From Ferrovibrio sp. MS7 (GTDB lineage: Bacteria > Pseudomonadota > Alphaproteobacteria > Ferrovibrionales > Ferrovibrionaceae): 64,000 nt of DNA. The stretch covers positions 400,001-464,000 of the forward strand of contig NZ_JBBKBA010000001.1 in the NCBI RefSeq assembly GCF_038404985.1, written 5' to 3'. The position numbers were made by a program, and so were the translations under genes. The notes below the pieces were generated by a model. That model had not been told where the DNA came from and searched no databases. It worked only from the letters and a program-made list of their open reading frames with translations. Shown one piece after another: positions 1,978 through 32,059 of the stretch (positions within the stretch are counted from its first letter, which is position 1; each line of letters begins with the position of its first letter).

Positions 1978-2898
1978 ATGACCAACATCAACCGCCCGAT
2001 GACAGCGCCGGAATGGGCGCTGCTGGTGATCCTCTCCCTGCTCTGGGGTGGCTCGTTCTTTTTCATCGGCGTGGCGGTGAAGGAGATTCCGCCGCTGACC
2101 CTGGTGACGCTGCGGGTGTCGCTCGCCGCTGCTATCCTGCTGCTGATCCTGCGCAGCCTGGGCATTGCCCTGCCGCGCGAAGCCCGGGTCTGGCGCGGCT
2201 TCCTGATCATGGGACTGCTCAACAACGCCATTCCCTTTTCGCTGATCGTCTGGGGCCAGAGCCATATCCCGAGCGGGCTGGCAGCGGTATTCAACGCCAC
2301 CACGCCGCTTTGGGCGGTGCTGCTGGCGCATGTGGTGACCGAGAATGAGAAGCTGACCCTGGCGCGGCTGGCGGGATTGCTCAGCGGCTTGGCTGGTGTC
2401 GCCGCCATGATCGGCCCGGCAGCGCTGAAAGGCCTTGGCACGGATGTCTGGGCGCAAGCGGCAATAGTGCTGGCGGCGGTCTCGTATGCTTGCGCCGGGC
2501 TCTATGGCCGCCGCTTCGCCGCCTGGGGTGTGCCGCCGATGGCGACGGCCGGCGGACAGGTGATTGGCTCAAGCATACTGCTTACGCCGCTGGCGCTGAT
2601 CATGGACCAGCCATGGCATCTGCCGCTGCCAAGTATGCACACGATCGCCGCCGTGCTCGGCCTTGCCGGCATTTCCACCGCGCTCGGCTACACGCTGTAT
2701 TTCCGCATTCTCGCCACCGCTGGCACCACCAACCTGCAACTGGTGACGTTTCTCATCCCGCCCAGCGCCATGCTGATGGGCGTGCTGTGGCTGGATGAAT
2801 CTGTCAGCGCCAGCCAATGGCTCGGGCTGGCGCTGATCGGTTTCGGACTCGCCTGCATTGATGGCCGGCTGCTGCGTTACTTCAAGGTCGCAAGGTAA
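1978..2898 (+). CDS. EamA/DMT-superfamily transporter
   Basis: A 306-residue integral membrane protein with about ten hydrophobic helices in two EamA repeats (about 10-140 and 155-300). The first repeat has the family signature LLWGGSFFFIGVAV and RVSLAAA. Drug/metabolite transporters of this type export small metabolites or amino acids; the substrate cannot be predicted. The ATG at 1978 is preferred over an in-frame GTG at 1960, which lies inside the palindromic repeat, but there is no clear ribosome-binding site and ATG 1999 is another option. The 3' end overlaps the convergent SRPBCC gene by 22 bp. Confidence 0.88.
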   Translation: MTNINRPMTAPEWALLVILSLLWGGSFFFIGVAVKEIPPLTLVTLRVSLAAAILLLILRSLGIALPREARVWRGFLIMGLLNNAIPFSLIVWGQSHIPSGLAAVFNATTPLWAVLLAHVVTENEKLTLARLAGLLSGLAGVAAMIGPAALKGLGTDVWAQAAIVLAAVSYACAGLYGRRFAAWGVPPMATAGGQVIGSSILLTPLALIMDQPWHLPLPSMHTIAAVLGLAGISTALGYTLYFRILATAGTTNLQLVTFLIPPSAMLMGVLWLDESVSASQWLGLALIGFGLACIDGRLLRYFKVAR

Positions 2899-3377
2899 TC
2901 CAGGAACTGCTCGAAAGTGCCGCCCCAGCCCTGCTCCATGCTGGCATGGCCGCCATCGAAGCAAGCCTGCTCGGCCGGCGTCGGCTCATAGGCGCTCCAG
3001 TTCACGGTGATGCGGGTCTTGCCGTCCGGCGTTTCCTCGAAAGTGGTGATGCCAAGCGTCTGCAGCGGCCAGTCCGGCCCCATCGGATGCCGCGTCACGC
3101 CCTGGTCGGGATCGGAGAAGGACACGATGCATTCCAGCAGATAGGGCGGCTCGATGCGGCGGAAGGTCCACTTGCCCCACATGTCGCCGCCACCGCCCGG
3201 AATCTGCAGGCAGTAATGGAACACGCCGCCGACGCGCAGATCCATGGTGCAATGGGTCATCGGAAAGCCCTTCGGGCCCATCCAGTTCTTCAGATGCTCG
3301 GCCTGGGTATGCAGGCGCCACACCAGCTCGCGCGGTGCATCGACAACACGGGACATAACGAAAGTGGAACCGGACAT
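2877..3377 (-). CDS. SRPBCC (AHSA1/START-like) domain protein
   Basis: A 166-residue single-domain protein of the SRPBCC fold. It starts with a typical AHSA1 strand (FVMSRVVDAPRELVWRLHTQAEHLKNWMGPKGF), continues with DLRVGGVFHYCLQIPGGG, and ends with the long C-terminal helix GGTFEQFLDYLATLK. Such proteins bind hydrophobic ligands or act as toxin-response proteins; no enzyme activity is implied. It is the last of three SRPBCC genes after an arsR gene on the same strand, and is related to the one at 4015-4518 by the shared W-x-GP(K/H)G motif. It probably belongs to the same transcription unit. Confidence 0.87.
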   Translation of the reverse strand: MSGSTFVMSRVVDAPRELVWRLHTQAEHLKNWMGPKGFPMTHCTMDLRVGGVFHYCLQIPGGGGDMWGKWTFRRIEPPYLLECIVSFSDPDQGVTRHPMGPDWPLQTLGITTFEETPDGKTRITVNWSAYEPTPAEQACFDGGHASMEQGWGGTFEQFLDYLATLK

Positions 3378-3431
3378 GATGTCTCTCTCTCCTGGAAAAT
3401 GTCTGGGGTGAAATTCAGTCGCGTTCAGCGT

Positions 3432-3953
3432 TCAGCGTTCGGCTTGCGCCTTGAGGTCGGCGAGGCCCTGGTCGAAAATCTTGTGCATCATGCTGGGGCG
3501 GCAGATCAGGCCGATCAGCTTGTGCAGATAGCCGTTGGTGCCGAACATCGCCCAGGTGACGCGGGTGGCATCGCCTTCCGGCGCCAGGGTGAATTCGGCG
3601 AAGCTGCTGGCCTTGAAGGGCCGGAGGAAGTCCAGCTTGAGCAGCAGGCGGTCCGGCACGGCCTCGAGGATTTCCATGCGGCCGGCGCCGATCTTGCGGT
3701 CGCCATCCCAGGCATAGGCGGCGCCGACGCCGCTTTCCGGCCCGGTGAAGCTGCGCTGCATGTCCGGATCCACCTTCTCCCAGGGCGACCAGGCATCCCA
3801 GCGCCGCAATTCGGCCAGATACGGCATGATCACGGCGGGCGCTGCCTTGATGCTGGTGCTGCGCTCAATGCGGAAATCATCCGGCCTTGTGGCAGCATAG
3901 AGCAGCACGGCGGCAATCAGGGCACAGAGACCAACGAGAATATAGGTCAGCAT
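3432..3953 (-). CDS. membrane-anchored SRPBCC family protein
   Basis: A 173-residue protein whose first ~22 residues form a hydrophobic segment (LTYILVGLCALIAAVLLYAATRP), probably an uncleaved anchor or signal. The rest matches polyketide-cyclase-type SRPBCC proteins: RSTSIKAAPAVIMPYLAELRRWDAWSPW, then GVGAAYAWDGDRKIGAGRMEI, then TRVTWAMFG. The family is common next to AHSA1 genes. It lies between two soluble SRPBCC genes in the operon led by the ArsR regulator. The ligand is unknown. Confidence 0.85.
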   Translation of the reverse strand: MLTYILVGLCALIAAVLLYAATRPDDFRIERSTSIKAAPAVIMPYLAELRRWDAWSPWEKVDPDMQRSFTGPESGVGAAYAWDGDRKIGAGRMEILEAVPDRLLLKLDFLRPFKASSFAEFTLAPEGDATRVTWAMFGTNGYLHKLIGLICRPSMMHKIFDQGLADLKAQAER

Positions 3954-4014
3954 CGCTTTGCTCCTTGATGCTTGCTGGGGAGGCTTCTGGGGAAAGGCTT
4001 GCAGGCTTGCAGGC

Positions 4015-4518
4015 TTACTGGCTCACCAGATCGGCGAGGCGTTCCAGGCTCTGGCCGAAGCCCTCTTCCATTCCCATGCGGGCCATGAAGGCGAGATCCT
4101 CGGCATTGCCCATGCGCGCCGTCACGGTCTGGCGCGTGCGGTTGCCGCCATCCAGGGCGGCGAAACGGATGATGTGGATGGCCGGGCGCGGCATGGTCTC
4201 GATCTCCCATTCGCCGCGGCTGTTATCGGCGCCCATGGTGTAGATCAGGCTTTCGCCAGGAATGGCTTCCAGCACTTCACCCTTGATCGGCAGGCCGACG
4301 CCATCCGGTCCCATCATCACGATGTAGATTTCGCCGCCGGGCCGGGCATCGATGCGGCAGACCGGGTTGGTGTAGCCATGCGGCCCCCACCAGCGCGCCA
4401 GATGCGCGGCATCGGTCCAGGCGCGGTAGACCAGGGCGGGCGGCGCATCGAACTCGCGCACCAGCACGATGTCGTGGCCCTGCACTGCGTGATGATCGAT
4501 GGGGTCAGTGCTGCTCAT
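4015..4518 (-). CDS. SRPBCC (AHSA1-like) domain protein
   Basis: A 167-residue START-like protein: IVLVREFDAPPALVYRAWTDAAHLARWWGPHGY is the canonical AHSA1 opening, followed by DARPGGEIYIVMMGPDG and the C-terminal helix EEGFGQSLERLADLVSQ. Its start overlaps the end of the ArsR gene by 14 bp, so the two are translationally coupled. ArsR-AHSA1 pairs are widespread; the regulator usually represses its partner. The function of the partner is not established. Confidence 0.9.
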   Translation of the reverse strand: MSSTDPIDHHAVQGHDIVLVREFDAPPALVYRAWTDAAHLARWWGPHGYTNPVCRIDARPGGEIYIVMMGPDGVGLPIKGEVLEAIPGESLIYTMGADNSRGEWEIETMPRPAIHIIRFAALDGGNRTRQTVTARMGNAEDLAFMARMGMEEGFGQSLERLADLVSQ

Positions 4519-4849
4519 CGGATTTCACCTGCTGCAATTGCTGCAGATAGGTATCGAGACGGTCGAAGCTCTGATCCCAGAAGCGCCGGTAGCCTTCCAC
4601 CCAGCCCGCCACCTCTTGCAGCGGCGAGGCTTCCAGCCGGCAGGGCCGCCACTGGGCCTCGCGGCCCTTGGCGATCAACCCGGCCTTTTCCAGCACCTTC
4701 AGATGCTTCGACACCGCCGGCAGGCTCATGGCGAAGGGCTCGGCAAGCTGTTTCACCGAACACTCGCCCTGGCTCAGCCGCGCCAGGATCGCCCGCCGGG
4801 TCGGATCGGCGAGGGCGGCCAGGGTCTGGCTGAGAGGATCGGTCGTCAC
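4505..4849 (-). CDS. ArsR-family winged-helix repressor
   Basis: A 114-residue ArsR/SmtB-type regulator. DPLSQTLAALADPTRRAILARL is the family opening and FAMSLPAVSKHLKVLEKAGLI is the recognition helix (about 42-62). No metal-binding CxC motif is visible, so it belongs with the non-metal regulators that accompany SRPBCC genes. The start codon is GTG at 4849. A weak AGG lies 7 bases upstream inside the palindrome at 4852-4885, so repressor bound there would block both transcription and ribosome access. It heads a four-gene operon with three SRPBCC genes. Confidence 0.92.
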   Translation of the reverse strand: MTTDPLSQTLAALADPTRRAILARLSQGECSVKQLAEPFAMSLPAVSKHLKVLEKAGLIAKGREAQWRPCRLEASPLQEVAGWVEGYRRFWDQSFDRLDTYLQQLQQVKSDEQH

Positions 4850-4851
4850 AA

Positions 4852-4885
4852 TTAAACCTATCGGTTAATTAACTTGATGGTTTAA
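4852..4885. promoter_or_regulatory. palindromic operator of the arsR-SRPBCC operon
   Basis: An AT-rich 34-bp imperfect palindrome: outer arms TTAAACC (4852-4858) and GGTTTAA (4879-4885), with the inner palindrome GTTAATTAAC (4864-4873) sharing the same centre. It stands out against the GC-rich surroundings and ends 2 bp before the GTG start of the ArsR gene. This is the position expected for an autoregulatory ArsR operator. Confidence 0.7.
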
Positions 4886-4931
4886 TATAAGCCGAAGCCG
4901 CGCCGGTCAACCGGAATCTTGGCCGGTGGCC

Positions 4932-4964
4932 AAAAGAAAAAGGGCGGCCTCTCAGCCGCCCTTT
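4932..4964 (-). terminator. Rho-independent terminator of clpB
   Basis: AAAGGGCGGC (4939-4948) pairs with GCCGCCCTTT (4955-4964) around a 6-base loop. Read on the minus strand, the hairpin is followed by a T-rich tract (complement of 4932-4941). It lies 25 bp after the clpB stop codon. Confidence 0.85.
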
Positions 4965-4988
4965 CCAATCAATGCGTTACGGGATGAT

Positions 4989-7571
<2,583 letters not shown>

Positions 7572-26786: not shown

Positions 26787-26859
26787 ACCATCCCCGCCCT
26801 TCGGGCTGCTGCTGCCGGCATTTTGCCGGGCAAAGCTGCATACGCCCATACTATCGTAA

Positions 26860-26870
26860 TATAATATAAT
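26860..26870 (+). promoter_or_regulatory. AT-rich promoter region of the ferritin-MNIO operon
   Basis: Two overlapping perfect TATAAT hexamers (26860-26865 and 26865-26870) lie in an AT-rich island (about 26845-26890) that contrasts with the GC-rich flanks. No good TTGACA is found at 16-18 bp upstream, so the element may need an activator or another sigma factor. The leader to the ATG at 26956 would be about 80 nt, ending in a strong GGGAGGA ribosome-binding site. Confidence 0.5.
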
Positions 26871-26955
26871 TTCTCTTTAAACACACCAAATACTAGTGTC
26901 TACTGGTTGTGTATCCATTTTCTTGGCAACTTTTCATCCATTACGGGAGGAATCC

Positions 26956-29043
26956 ATGTCCACCAGCCCCACCGGCACCGGCAAACCCTCTTCCGGCTTC
27001 GGCGCCCTGCCGCCGGTTCCCGTGCCGATCATCAACCGCCCGCTGTCCAACCTCGCGGCCGATACTGCCGCCGCCAAGGCAATGGCCCAGGCGGCAATCA
27101 ATGTCGAACTGTTCACCATCCCGCTCTATATGGCGGCGATGACCTCGCTGCAGGGCGTGCATGAGATCAATGCCAGCGGCATTTCCTACTACGAAGGCCG
27201 CGCCTGGCCGGGCATGAGCACGTCGGCCACCGCCACGACGCCAAACCAGCAGGCCTATAATGCCATCTTCGCGGTGTTCATCGAGGAGATGCTGCATCTC
27301 CAGCTCGCCGCCAATATCGCTTCCGCGCTCGGCGTGCAGCCGAGTTTCACCAGCGCGGCTTTGCAGACCAGCAATGGCGGCTGGACCTGCTATGGCGCCA
27401 GCAACACCGTGATTCCGCATATCGTGAACCTCACCGACCTGGTGGCGCCCTATAACACCCTGGCGGTGAATCTGGCGGCGCTGACCGTGCCGCAGACGCA
27501 GCTTTTCGAACTGATCGAGCAGGATCACGCGACGGCGCTGAACAATATCCAGCCGGCGGCGCGCACGAAGTATTTCCCCACCGCGCCTTTCGCCGGCTGG
27601 ACCGCGACGATGACCGAGCAGGACCTGCCGCTCTTCGGCACCATCGGCTGGATGTACTACTGCTACATGCAGTACATCACCATGGTCTATACCGATGGCC
27701 AGACGCTGTTCGAGAAGATGTTCGTGGCCGGCAGCGTGCAGCAGGACATGTTCAACAGCACCAGCACGTCGCATCACGCGGAATATCCGCTGATGTCGGC
27801 CACGGTGAGCGCCTCTCAGCCGCTCGCCGCGCTGGCCCAGGCGGTGGACATGATCCTGGGCATCACCAGCCAGGGCGAAGGTGCCGGCCAGAGCGGCGCC
27901 AGCCTGGCCCGCCTGCTGCCACCGAAGGCGCGCGCCGCGCTACGCAGCGTGAAGGCGCCGCAGGATGATGGCGGCGTCGATCCGGTATTCCAGCCCGACG
28001 AACAGAACCTCGCCTTCGACTATCCGTCCTACAATTCCGATGGCAGCCAGGCACCGCAATCGGCCGATGCCACGGCGCGCGGCACCTGGGGCGCCACCAC
28101 GCATTTCGAAATCTTCACCCAGTTGCAGAGTCTGGTGGCGGCCGGCGGCGTGGTCACCTTCCCGGCCTGGTTCGCCGCCGGCAATAGCTGGACAGCGGCC
28201 TTGCTCACCACCACACCGCCCAATCCCAGCCCGCCGACCAATATCCCGAGCACGCAACAGGTGGCCGATGCGCTGAACGCGCTGAGCGGCGAGGCCAGCC
28301 TGCTCAATACCGTGGTCACCGGCGCCATCGCCGGCGTTACCATGGGCCTGAACCTCTACTGGCAGAGCCAGTCCGCTGGCTTCCCCTATCCGGCGATGGT
28401 CGGCGCCGGCGACCGCATGACCATGTGCTGGGCGGCAAACAGCGAGCCTAATCTCTCGCAGGGCCTGACGCCGACGCCCGAACCGGGCCGCTCGCCCAGC
28501 GCCTGCCAGGGCCTCAACTACCAGAGCCCGCCGGCCAACCCGAGCTGCGGCACTGTCTCGGTGTTCCATTCCTGTCGCGGCACCAATGCCTGTTCCGGCC
28601 AGGGCGGCTGTGGCTTCGCGCAGCCGGATACCGGCAGCCCGCAGACCTGTTCCGCCGTGGCGGCGCGGCGTGTGCGCAAGCCGCGCATGTCGGCACGGCC
28701 TGCTGCCTGCGGCAGCCCGGTGGGCGGCACCTGTGGCGGCCCGACACCGCCACCGCCAGGACCGACGGTGTATTCAGCGCCGGGCGACAATGCCTGCCAG
28801 ACACTGGGCGGCTGCGCCGTGCCGATCTCGGCCTCGCAGCTCTATCCGGAATCCGGCACCATGCAGGTCTACAACCTGTTTGGCGACACGCCGCAGAAGC
28901 TCGGCACGATTCCCTTCGCGTTGGGCGACGCGGTGTTCGACATCGCCTGGGAAGCCTATTCCCAGGTGATGCAGACCAAGGGCATCACACCGACCAAGCC
29001 GGCGCCCTCGAACCTGCGTGTGGCGCTGCCTCCCTCGACCTGA
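26956..29043 (+). CDS. ferritin-like (VioB-type) protein with C-terminal cysteine-rich, bufferin-like domain
   Basis: A 695-residue protein. The N-terminal part (about 30-330) is a ferritin-like fold of the type found in VioB and iminophenyl-pyruvate dimer synthases: carboxylate/histidine ligands appear as E51 in INVELFTIPLY, E111-x-x-H114 in FIEEMLHLQL, and E185/E188 in LFELIEQDH. A linker and a second helical part follow (about 330-510). Residues 517-620 hold ten cysteines, including HSCRGTNACSGQGGCG and GDNACQTLGGCAVP, a pattern known from substrates of DUF692 oxygenases. No signal peptide is visible. ATG 26956 has a strong GGGAGGA. The next gene, the oxygenase, overlaps the stop codon. 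Confidence 0.85.
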   Translation: MSTSPTGTGKPSSGFGALPPVPVPIINRPLSNLAADTAAAKAMAQAAINVELFTIPLYMAAMTSLQGVHEINASGISYYEGRAWPGMSTSATATTPNQQAYNAIFAVFIEEMLHLQLAANIASALGVQPSFTSAALQTSNGGWTCYGASNTVIPHIVNLTDLVAPYNTLAVNLAALTVPQTQLFELIEQDHATALNNIQPAARTKYFPTAPFAGWTATMTEQDLPLFGTIGWMYYCYMQYITMVYTDGQTLFEKMFVAGSVQQDMFNSTSTSHHAEYPLMSATVSASQPLAALAQAVDMILGITSQGEGAGQSGASLARLLPPKARAALRSVKAPQDDGGVDPVFQPDEQNLAFDYPSYNSDGSQAPQSADATARGTWGATTHFEIFTQLQSLVAAGGVVTFPAWFAAGNSWTAALLTTTPPNPSPPTNIPSTQQVADALNALSGEASLLNTVVTGAIAGVTMGLNLYWQSQSAGFPYPAMVGAGDRMTMCWAANSEPNLSQGLTPTPEPGRSPSACQGLNYQSPPANPSCGTVSVFHSCRGTNACSGQGGCGFAQPDTGSPQTCSAVAARRVRKPRMSARPAACGSPVGGTCGGPTPPPPGPTVYSAPGDNACQTLGGCAVPISASQLYPESGTMQVYNLFGDTPQKLGTIPFALGDAVFDIAWEAYSQVMQTKGITPTKPAPSNLRVALPPST

Positions 29044-29867
29044 TGCGGGCTGTCTCTCCCAGACTGGGCCTGCCGCAGCTCGGCTATGGCCTCGGCCTGC
29101 GCCAGGAGCATCTACCGGCCATCATGGCCAAGGGTGCCCGGGTCGACTGGTTCGAGGTCATCACCGAGAATCTGCTCGGGCATCGCGGCTATCTCCGCCA
29201 GGCGGTCAACCGCCTGGCGGAGACCACGCCGATTGTGCTGCATGGCGTGACGCTGTCGATCGGCGGCAGCGATCCACTCGATCTCGAATACCTGCGCGAC
29301 GTGAAACGGCTGGCGGCCGAACTGCACGCACCATGGGTTTCCGATCATCTCTGCTGGACCAGCCTGGGCGGCCATAACAGCCATGACCTGCTGCCACTCC
29401 CGCTCACCGAAGCCTCGCTGCGCCATGTCACCGCGCGGGTAGCCGAAGCTCAGGATGTGCTGGGCCAGCGCCTGGTGCTTGAGAATCCCAGCAGCTACCT
29501 GCGTTTCCGCCAGGACAGCATGCCGGAATGGGAATTTCTTGCCCGGCTGGCGGAAGCCGCCGATTGCGGCCTGCTGCTGGATGTCAACAACGTCTATGTC
29601 TCGGGCCGCAATCATGGCTTCGATCCAGAAGGTTACATCCGTGCCCTGCCGTCGGCGCGCATCGTGCAACTGCATCTCGCCGGCGCCACCGATTGCGGCA
29701 CGCATCTGATCGATACCCATGACCATCCGGTGCGCGATGAGGTCTGGACGCTCTACCGCCTGGCGCAACAGCTTACCGGCGGCGTCGCCACCTTGCTGGA
29801 ATGGGATGCGCAGCTGCCGAGCTATGACGACCTGCTGGCGGAACTCGCCAAGGCCTGGGCGGCCTGA
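29043..29867 (+). CDS. DUF692 multinuclear non-heme iron oxygenase (MNIO, BufB-like)
   Basis: A 274-residue TIM-barrel protein of the MNIO family (MbnB, TglH, ChrH, BufB), which modify cysteines of ribosomally made peptides using a mixed-valent iron cluster. The expected ligand motifs are all present: H67 in VLHGVTLSIG, D101-H102 in VSDHLCW, E147 in LVLENPSSY, D180-V-N-N in LLLDVNNVYVS, H211 in QLHLAG, D224/H226/H228 in IDTHDHPV and the final LLEWD. The ATG overlaps the stop of the ferritin-like gene (TGATG), and the DUF2063 gene follows directly. The cysteine-rich tail encoded upstream is the obvious substrate. Confidence 0.93.
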   Translation: MRAVSPRLGLPQLGYGLGLRQEHLPAIMAKGARVDWFEVITENLLGHRGYLRQAVNRLAETTPIVLHGVTLSIGGSDPLDLEYLRDVKRLAAELHAPWVSDHLCWTSLGGHNSHDLLPLPLTEASLRHVTARVAEAQDVLGQRLVLENPSSYLRFRQDSMPEWEFLARLAEAADCGLLLDVNNVYVSGRNHGFDPEGYIRALPSARIVQLHLAGATDCGTHLIDTHDHPVRDEVWTLYRLAQQLTGGVATLLEWDAQLPSYDDLLAELAKAWAA

Positions 29868-30674
29868 ATGACACCGGATCTGGCCCAGCTTCAGCATTGG
29901 TTCCTGCTGCGGCTGCTGCGGCCCGACATCACGCTGCAGCCAGACACCGCCGAGATCGTGGCACCGCCACCGGCTGGTGATGCCGAGACACGCCTGGAAA
30001 TCTATGTCGATGCCTACCGGCTGCGGCTGCTGCAATGCCTGCAAGCGGATCATCCCGGCCTGGCGCGGCTGCTGGGCGAGGCATTGTTCAACCAGCTTGC
30101 CGAAGCCTATATCCGCAGCATGCCGCCGCGCGCCCATAGCCTCTATGCGCTCGGCGCCGCTTTCCCCGGCTTCCTGCGCAAGACGCAGCGTGGCCAGCGG
30201 CGCGATGCCTCCCTCACGCTGGCGCTCGACCTCGCCCGTTTCGAGCGGCACTGGAACGAAGCTATGCGTGCCGAGGGCCTGGAGGATATCCGGGCGAAAA
30301 CCATCACCGCGCATCCCGCCATGCTGCTGCATCTACCGCCCAGCACGCGACCGCTGCTGCTGCGCCAGCCGCTGGCAGTGCTGCAAAGCTGGATCGCCGC
30401 CGCGCCGGATGGCGACAGCCGCATTGCCACCTCACATAACGCGCCGCTGCATTACGCCATGATCGCGCGCCGCGACTGGCGGCTGGCGGCGCATGAGATC
30501 GAGGATTGGGCTTTCCATGCCCTGCGTGCCGCGCAAAGCGGGCCGCGCAGCCTGCATGATTGTGCCGTGATCGCCGGCCGCCGGCTCAGGCGCGAGCCGG
30601 CCGCGATCCTGGCGAAGCTGCTGCTGTGGGCGCCGCTGGCGCAGCAGGCGCAGATACTGGCCCTGCGCGATTAG
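29868..30674 (+). CDS. DUF2063 MNIO partner protein (BufC-like)
   Basis: A 268-residue protein. The N-terminal half is a DUF2063 domain (RLEIYVDAYRLRLLQCLQADHPGLARLLGEALFNQLAEAYI, then PPRAHSLYALGAAFPGFL). In MNIO operons such proteins bring the substrate peptide to the oxygenase, recognising its leader or core. The C-terminal half is a beta-rich extension followed by helices, as in BufC. It starts directly after the MNIO stop codon, and the three genes form one transcription unit. The next gene is on the opposite strand, which marks the operon end. Confidence 0.9.
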   Translation: MTPDLAQLQHWFLLRLLRPDITLQPDTAEIVAPPPAGDAETRLEIYVDAYRLRLLQCLQADHPGLARLLGEALFNQLAEAYIRSMPPRAHSLYALGAAFPGFLRKTQRGQRRDASLTLALDLARFERHWNEAMRAEGLEDIRAKTITAHPAMLLHLPPSTRPLLLRQPLAVLQSWIAAAPDGDSRIATSHNAPLHYAMIARRDWRLAAHEIEDWAFHALRAAQSGPRSLHDCAVIAGRRLRREPAAILAKLLLWAPLAQQAQILALRD

Positions 30675-30684
30675 AACGTCGCGC

Positions 30685-31056
30685 TTACCAGCGCAGCAGG
30701 TCGAAGCGCACCAGGCGGTAGGGCATCGGGGCTAGGCCGTTCTTCAGCCGCAGTGGATGTTCAATCATCTGCACCAGGGCCATCGCGGCGAAAGCGCCGA
30801 TGAATGACAGTGCCAGATTGGCCAGCATGGCGATGGAGGTCCAGAAGCTGGCAAGGTCTTCCGGCAGATAGGCCGGCAGCGCCCCGGCGACACCCTGGCC
30901 CAGGCCGAAGCCGCAGACCAGCGCCAGCACGTTGCAGCCATAGCGCGCCAGCCGGCGGCCCTCGCTGGGGCCGGTTTCATAGCGCACCGCCGTGATGGCG
31001 CCGAACAGCGAGAACAGCAATGTGCCGGCCAGCAGTGCGAGATTCACTTCCTGCAT
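30685..31056 (-). CDS. small integral membrane protein of unknown function
   Basis: A 123-residue protein with three to four hydrophobic segments (about 5-24, 41-62, 70-105), a short loop containing ALPAYLPEDLASF, and a basic C-terminus ending RLVRFDLLRW. I do not recognise a family. ATG 31056 was chosen over upstream in-frame starts because GGGAGCG precedes it at a suitable distance and the extra N-terminus looks non-coding. It is convergent with the MNIO operon, 10 bp away, and upstream of the aldo/keto reductase's stop on the same strand. Confidence 0.65.
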   Translation of the reverse strand: MQEVNLALLAGTLLFSLFGAITAVRYETGPSEGRRLARYGCNVLALVCGFGLGQGVAGALPAYLPEDLASFWTSIAMLANLALSFIGAFAAMALVQMIEHPLRLKNGLAPMPYRLVRFDLLRW

Positions 31057-31078
31057 TATAGACGCTCCCGCTTCGGCA

Positions 31079-32059
31079 TCACGAATGCCCCAGCACCGGG
31101 TGCGGCTTGTACGGCTCTTCCAGGAAGGCCATCTCATCAGCGCTCAAGGTGATTTTCAGCGCCGCCAGCGCATCGTCGAAATGGCCCGGCTTGCTGGCGC
31201 CGATGATCGGCGCGGTGACGCCGGGCCTGCCCAGCAGCCAGGCCAGAGCCACCGATGCCGGCTTGGCGCCGCGCTTCTGCGCCAGTTCCGACACGCGCTC
31301 GGCGATGGTGAAATCACCCGGCTGGTAATACATGCGCTGCGCGATGTCGTCGGTCTTGGCGCGTTCGGTATCACCCCAGCCCTGCTTCAGGCGGTTGCCG
31401 GCGAGGAAGCCGCGCGCCAGCGGCGACCACGGAATGACGCCGATACCGTTGGCGCGGCAGAGCGGCAGCATCTCGCGCTCCTCCTCGCGGTAGACCAGAT
31501 TGTAATGGTTCTGCATCGCCACGAACCGCGCCCAGCCATTCGCCTTCTGGCGATGCAGTGCATCCATGAACTGCCAAGCATACATCGAGGAGGCGCCGAT
31601 ATAGAGCGCCTTGCCGGCGCGCACCACATCGTTTAGCGCCTCCAGCGTCTCGTCGATCGGCGTGTTTGGATCGTAGCGGTGGATCTGGTAGAGATCGACA
31701 TAATCGGTGCCAAGCCGTTTCAGCGAGGCATCGATGGCCGCCATGATATGCTTGCGCGACAGGCCGCGGCGGTTCGGGCCGGAGCCCATCGGGTTATACA
31801 CCTTTGTCGCCAGCACGGTTTCGCTGCGCTTGGTGAATTTCTTCAGCATGCGGCCGGTGATTTCCTCCGACACACCGATGGAATAGACATCCGCCGTATC
31901 GAAGAAATTGATGCCGGCTTCCACCGCCTGGCGGAAGAACGGCTCGCTTTCCGCCTCCGGCAATACCCAGGAGCGCCATTTCGGATCGCCATAGGTCATG
32001 CAGCCGAGGCAGAGGCGCGACACCATCATGCCGGTGGTTCCAAGGCGCAGCATATCCAT
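31079..32059 (-). CDS. aldo/keto reductase
   Basis: A 326-residue NADPH-dependent TIM-barrel reductase. The catalytic tetrad is visible: Asp in FFDTADVYSIG with its Tyr, Lys in LATKVYNP, and His in DLYQIHRYDPNTP. NADPH-binding elements include IPWSPLARGFL and APIIGASKPGHFDDALAAL. It resembles the YajO/general stress protein 69 group that reduces carbonyls; the true substrate is unknown. It is followed by a ChaC gene on the same strand (3-bp gap) and a transporter gene. Confidence 0.93.
   Translation of the reverse strand: MDMLRLGTTGMMVSRLCLGCMTYGDPKWRSWVLPEAESEPFFRQAVEAGINFFDTADVYSIGVSEEITGRMLKKFTKRSETVLATKVYNPMGSGPNRRGLSRKHIMAAIDASLKRLGTDYVDLYQIHRYDPNTPIDETLEALNDVVRAGKALYIGASSMYAWQFMDALHRQKANGWARFVAMQNHYNLVYREEEREMLPLCRANGIGVIPWSPLARGFLAGNRLKQGWGDTERAKTDDIAQRMYYQPGDFTIAERVSELAQKRGAKPASVALAWLLGRPGVTAPIIGASKPGHFDDALAALKITLSADEMAFLEEPYKPHPVLGHS

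Follow-up and report, generated by a model that had tools for sequence, protein, structure and literature searches.

Comparative analysis points to a ferritin-like protein with a cysteine tail as the substrate of a bufferin-type MNIO in Ferrovibrio sp. MS7

Introduction

What does a bufferin-type MNIO modify when the gene at the precursor position encodes a large ferritin-like protein? This question is raised by a locus at positions 26956-30674 of a 64,000-nt stretch of Ferrovibrio sp. MS7 DNA (hereafter the window; the genome measures 4.58 Mb), where three genes on the + strand encode, in this order, a PF12902 ferritin-like protein of 695 residues, an MNIO (DUF692) and a DUF2063 partner. The characterised products of MNIO-DUF2063 (PME-type 1) clusters carry 5-thiooxazoles on cysteines and generally bind copper (PMC13097082); they are small copper-binding peptides, mostly exported. 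For fontiphorin the same paper reports a mass loss of 4 Da for each modified cysteine, an absorbance near 305 nm and groups that react with iodoacetamide. The window protein has no visible signal peptide and bears a cysteine-rich segment, here called the tail. We propose that the three genes form a maturation unit with a cytosolic ferritin-like substrate, whose tail cysteines would be modified and would serve in metal handling. As a whole we consider this explanation probable, by a modest measure. Its parts differ in strength: the assignment of the ferritin-like protein as substrate is well supported by sequence comparison, and the tail cysteines are probably converted, presumably to 5-thiooxazoles.

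Results

The cysteine tail accompanies the MNIO

Relatives were sought with the whole window protein, with PF12902 and with profiles. Seven lineages, belonging to three classes, share the three-gene order, and each of their ferritin-like proteins carries a cysteine segment (Table 1); a Ferrovibrio metagenome-assembled genome with the same locus is among the named relatives. The ferritin-like protein of L018, from a further class, is 23-24% identical to that of the window and has its own cysteine tail, MNIO (E 4.6e-90) and DUF2063 gene. As controls we used 14 other PF12902 proteins, eleven from the family search (L040-L050) and three found by profile (L078, L079 and L105), with up to about 6 kb read on each side (L042, L050 and L078 are truncated where their contigs end). 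In the stretch read, none of the 14 control loci has such a tail or an MNIO. Counted once per lineage, tail and MNIO are thus both present in 7 and both absent in 14 (Fisher p 8.6e-6). Since the window protein itself served to find some of the relatives, the fairer figure is that of the PF12902 family search alone, in which 3 proteins have both and 11 have neither (p = 1/364, same test). The preliminary description of this DNA had suggested comparing homologues for a link between the tail and DUF692/DUF2063 genes, and the comparison bears this out in all seven lineages; a tail-less ferritin-like gene beside a DUF692 gene was sought among the PF12902 loci and none was found.

Furthermore, a profile of the tail run against 200 genomes of the phylum matched ferritin-like carriers only. 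No relative was found in phage records. A plasmid search with the window protein returned two Pseudoalteromonas megaplasmids only, and one with the L018 tail alone returned nothing; with the full L018 protein, none of the matches listed extends over more than half of the query, and they lie within the ferritin-like part. Weak matches in G205 and G396 were inspected and are not relatives, and L051-L053, bacterioferritin-type by appearance, were left out of the comparison.

The three genes are also present or absent as one unit at their site. In the window and in two congeners they lie between the same neighbours, an AMP-ligase gene and an aldo-keto reductase gene, and in three congeners that do not carry the operon these neighbours adjoin, 85, 15 and 106 bp apart. 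The genes are tightly packed, as first described: the stop codon of the ferritin-like gene and the ATG of the MNIO gene overlap by one base (TGATG), and there is a zero gap between the MNIO and DUF2063 genes. The region upstream has blocks (ATACT..TGGTTG..ATTTTCT) in common with two congeners. Between the block and the aldo-keto reductase gene the window also has a short open reading frame (ORF) with hydrophobic stretches (30685-31137, minus strand), which neither of the two block-carrying congeners has.

One MNIO lineage goes with the ferritin-like proteins

Profile matches confirm the predicted gene order. The ferritin-like protein matches PF12902 over residues 45-313 (E 4e-17, 63.3 bits, gathering cut-off 22.3). 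The MNIO matches PF05114 (E 1.3e-102) and the NCBIfam model MNIO_BufB (NF050167; 334.5 bits, cut-off 310), and the partner matches PF09836, the DUF2063 family (E 1.9e-19, 70.2 bits, cut-off 27.2), with a weak HvfC match; eight partner proteins from relatives were scanned as well, and every one of them scores above the gathering threshold for PF09836.

Residues H67, H102, E147, N183, H211, D224, H226 and E253 of the MNIO are invariant at the positions of known MNIO iron sites. These positions were mapped through 3bww and HvfB residues (PMC13419390); the rest are those of MbnB. In a tree of 31 rows, the ten ferritin-associated MNIOs, that of L018 included, form one clade (support 96/97), nested in a 100/99 clade that they share with the Buf2 maturases and with a single Buf1 row, L058; the other Buf1 maturases fall outside. 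One MNIO lineage thus appears to be dedicated to the ferritin-like substrate type. The Ferrovibrio MNIOs cluster with that of G790, from another class (95/90), rather than with the other MNIOs of their own class, a grouping that points to horizontal transfer.

These observations bear on the view that the tail is an unmodified zinc, iron-sulphur or disulphide segment, with the MNIO linked for another reason. Indeed, clustered cysteines are able to bind metals without modification. Against this stand the strict co-occurrence with one MNIO clade in seven lineages and the intact iron-site residues of the MNIO, and we regard an unmodified tail as very improbable.

The tail is conserved, predicted to be disordered and has a Buf2-like motif

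The tail comprises ten cysteines, at residues 517, 531, 540, 546, 552, 565, 585, 593, 614 and 620. The number and span given in the preliminary description were exact; its placement of the segment at the very C-terminus was not, since 75 residues follow, mostly a small folded domain for which structure comparison gave no clear match (best Z 3.5). The tail itself is predicted to be disordered, with a model confidence score (pLDDT) of about 20.

Cysteines C517, C540, C552, C614 and C620 are found in ten of ten relatives, C546 in nine and C531 in eight. Across the seven lineages, 14 tail positions are invariant (C517, G519, H538, C540, N544, C552, G553, A608, P609, N612, C614, C620, P623 and I624), and cysteines are conserved in a mean of 5.3 of 7 lineages, versus 2.8 at other tail positions (p 0.002). 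The L077 protein, with its natural Cys-to-His variant (described below), is useful for asking which tail cysteines matter.

The tail motif CRGTNACSGQGGC, of the CxGxNxC type, resembles Buf2 bufferins such as CMGVNACKGQSAC. The sole NCBIfam match of the window ferritin-like protein is the BufA2 model (NF050166), whose cut-off it does not reach (10.3 vs 60 bits). We also built a BufA2 profile and scored the tails against 2000 shuffles of equal composition: 3 to 79 shuffles match the score of the real tail, and none does for L018. We read this likeness as a short shared motif, by which the window protein would not in itself become a bufferin.

The core carries a putative dimetal site

The modelled core matches 3hl1 (Caulobacter CC_0557) with Z 23.4 over 264 residues at 24% identity. 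The next fold matches are manganese catalases (Z about 8 over ~145 residues), a level within chance reach for helical bundles. Beyond the core the predicted structure is poor (mean pLDDT 51). Residues E51, E111, H114, E188 and H383 are kept in all 22 aligned PF12902 proteins and E308 in 21; from this pattern we deduce a putative dimetal site, and its residues are kept in all tail-bearing proteins. The core cysteines 145, 236 and 491 are not kept in all relatives. A crude hydrophobicity test, in which BufA1 and BufA2 controls behave differently, picks up a hydrophobic N-terminal stretch in none of ten relatives, in keeping with the earlier remark that no signal peptide is visible.

Elsewhere in PF12902, two proteins from two lineages (L048, 5991-7973, and L105, 5900-7591) are fused to C-terminal CDGSH and Fer4_19 modules, and a third gene (L079, 5881-10086) directly precedes genes for a LodA-type oxidase and an FAD oxidoreductase (LodB-like). 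The latter arrangement is reminiscent of fungi, in which ferritin-like genes occur near lodA (PMC4417212). It seems that C-terminal modules for metal or redox functions have been added to the PF12902 core repeatedly.

Other MNIO loci of the genome

The genome has two further MNIO loci. One (L020, G000:C1:918000-930000, 2762-6559) is a complete Buf1 operon encoding BufA1 with a signal peptide, an MNIO, a DUF2063 protein and a DoxX-like protein, with divergent ECF sigma and anti-sigma genes and a match to the SigF-type promoter GTAACG-N16-CGAA. The other (L021, G000:C1:1482000-1494000, 4052-6206, minus strand) holds the third MNIO gene with DUF2063 and DoxX-like genes, and just before this MNIO gene there is no obvious cysteine-rich precursor ORF.

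The ferritin-like protein could instead be a helper of the MNIO, supplying iron or oxidant, and the substrate a cysteine-rich peptide encoded elsewhere, for example the genome's own Buf1 precursor. Indeed, a dimetal protein could feed iron to an iron enzyme, and a complete Buf1 operon is at hand. An MNIO and a partner are already encoded within this Buf1 operon. Moreover, no separate small cysteine-rich precursor ORF was found in the block or at its edges, and the region upstream of the ferritin-like gene is too short to hold a precursor gene of its own. A helper would have no need of a conserved bufferin-like tail, which is absent from all the MNIO-less PF12902 proteins examined. We consider such a helper role improbable. 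The ferritin-like protein as MNIO substrate through its tail, as first proposed, is well supported by the comparison of sequences: the co-occurrence, the MNIO clade, the joint presence or absence of the three genes and the Buf2-like motif all point to it.

Table 1. Features of the locus in the window (coordinates in nucleotides) and relatives with the same gene order
Feature	Coordinates or loci	Strand	Description
Upstream region	26787..26955	+	AT-rich stretch 26855-26900; Shine-Dalgarno GGGAGGA at 26945-26951
Ferritin-like gene with cysteine tail, predicted MNIO substrate	26956..29043	+	ATG 26956, stop 29041-29043; 695 aa; PF12902
Ferritin-like core	27043..28410	+	Residues 30-485; putative dimetal residues E51, E111, H114, E188, E308, H383
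Cysteine tail	28486..28830	+	Residues 511-625; ten cysteines; motif CRGTNACSGQGGCG
Small C-terminal domain	28831..29040	+	Residues 626-695; modelled as two strands, a helix and a further strand (AlphaFold2 on the last 96 residues; mean pLDDT 74)
MNIO (DUF692, BufB-type) maturase	29043..29867	+	274 aa; PF05114 and NF050167 above cut-off
DUF2063 partner (PME-type 1)	29868..30674	+	268 aa; PF09836
Relatives: Ferrovibrio group	L005/L007, L006/L008		Two other genomes
Relatives: same class	L013, L017		Two other families
Relatives: Pseudoalteromonas	L011, L012		Two megaplasmids
Relatives: another class of the phylum	L076, L077		Two genomes
Relative: further class	L018		One genome

Discussion

A proposed maturation unit for a cytosolic protein

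The following sequence of events can be proposed. First, the ferritin-like protein would be made without a signal peptide, and its core would hold dinuclear iron or manganese through E51, E111, H114, E188 and H383, and perhaps E308. Published family data suggest that the DUF2063/RRE partner would then bring the protein to the MNIO, and that the MNIO would oxidise cysteines in the disordered tail, with 5-thiooxazoles as the most likely products. Finally, next to the dimetal core, the modified tail may bind a thiophilic metal, for which Cu(I) is the likeliest candidate, and the protein could then handle metal inside the cell as an oxidase, a catalase or a sink.

The modified tail would thus be a module for a thiophilic metal, probably copper, or for redox chemistry. 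Copper binding is favoured because the known MNIO-DUF2063 products bind copper. It has a serious rival in a redox or cofactor role, because other PF12902 proteins bear CDGSH and Fer4_19 modules or adjoin LodA-like genes. Here the tail would be modified and would act as a protein-derived cofactor or relay for the dimetal core, not as a copper sink. The two fusions place iron-sulphur modules at the same C-terminal position as the tail, another PF12902 gene lies beside LodA and FAD oxidoreductase genes, and every tail protein retains the dimetal residues; the copper binding of the known products speaks against it, and we judge it rather unlikely. Somewhat less doubtful, and still tentative, is the proposal of a cytosolic dimetal enzyme matured by the MNIO, in which tail thiooxazoles would provide a protein-derived cofactor or a metal relay for the ferritin-like site. 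The preliminary description had likewise suggested that a metal may pass between the modified tail and a di-iron site, of which the comparison shows the conserved putative dimetal residues.

Besides the way in which the relatives were found, several points weigh against the explanation that we favour. No SigF-type (copper-type extracytoplasmic function, ECF) promoter was found before the operon, and no copper genes were seen beside it. The BufA2 match is insignificant alone (E 0.64 for the window protein, 0.17 for the best relative), the cysteine-rich protein CdeC scores about equal to BufA2 in one relative, and some tails are only moderately above their shuffles on the BufA2 profile. The protein of L077 (5207-7174, minus strand) has a histidine in place of window C546 (NLHKGQGGC). 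The signal-peptide test is crude. A published survey of these systems associates DUF2063 (PME-type 1) partners with precursors exported by Sec, and PME-type 2 with those that have no signal peptide (PMC12452194). The window family, with a clear DUF2063 partner and a protein without a visible signal peptide, is an exception to this correlation.

If the maturation unit that we propose is correct, MNIO chemistry also modifies a large cytosolic protein, beyond small exported peptides, and the link between DUF2063 and Sec export has an exception. It would also offer a tractable system for the joint working of thiooxazoles and a dimetal site, and a lead to the function of some members of PF12902, a family that has been little studied. 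Should the cofactor or relay role be true, MNIO chemistry would reach from exported peptides to enzymes.

Comparison with known systems

A literature search for work joining MNIO or DUF692 with ferritin returned no relevant paper, a provisional result, as subscription papers and the supplementary tables of the survey (PMC12452194) lay outside it; ferritin goes unmentioned in the main text of that survey. The closest known system is Bufferin 2 (BufA2, BufB, BufC; 'Cys-Lys' captophorins), which shares the precursor-MNIO-DUF2063 order, the MNIO clade and the CxGxNxC-type motif. In contrast, the window precursor has 695 residues, a ferritin-like core and no signal peptide, and fails the BufA2 cut-off.

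Large fusions of bufferin domains are also described in the survey's main text (MerC-Buf1/Buf2, Buf1-cytochrome c-FGE-sulfatase and Buf_EGKCG-EF-hand), and like the window protein they place an MNIO-associated cysteine domain on a larger protein (PMC12452194). They differ in being signal-peptide or membrane proteins whose bufferin part is predicted to lie outside the cytoplasm. The same text describes MNIO-associated proteins that, like ours, have no signal peptide and are encoded before MNIO genes (TIGR04222, adjamnio-I to -IV; PMC12452194); where partners are named there, the signal-less families mostly go with PME-type 2, whereas the window partner is clearly a DUF2063 protein. Finally, CC_0557 (3hl1, PF12902) shares the fold of the core. 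With about 300 residues it aligns with the core only, its solved chain being too short for the tail and the C-terminal domain.

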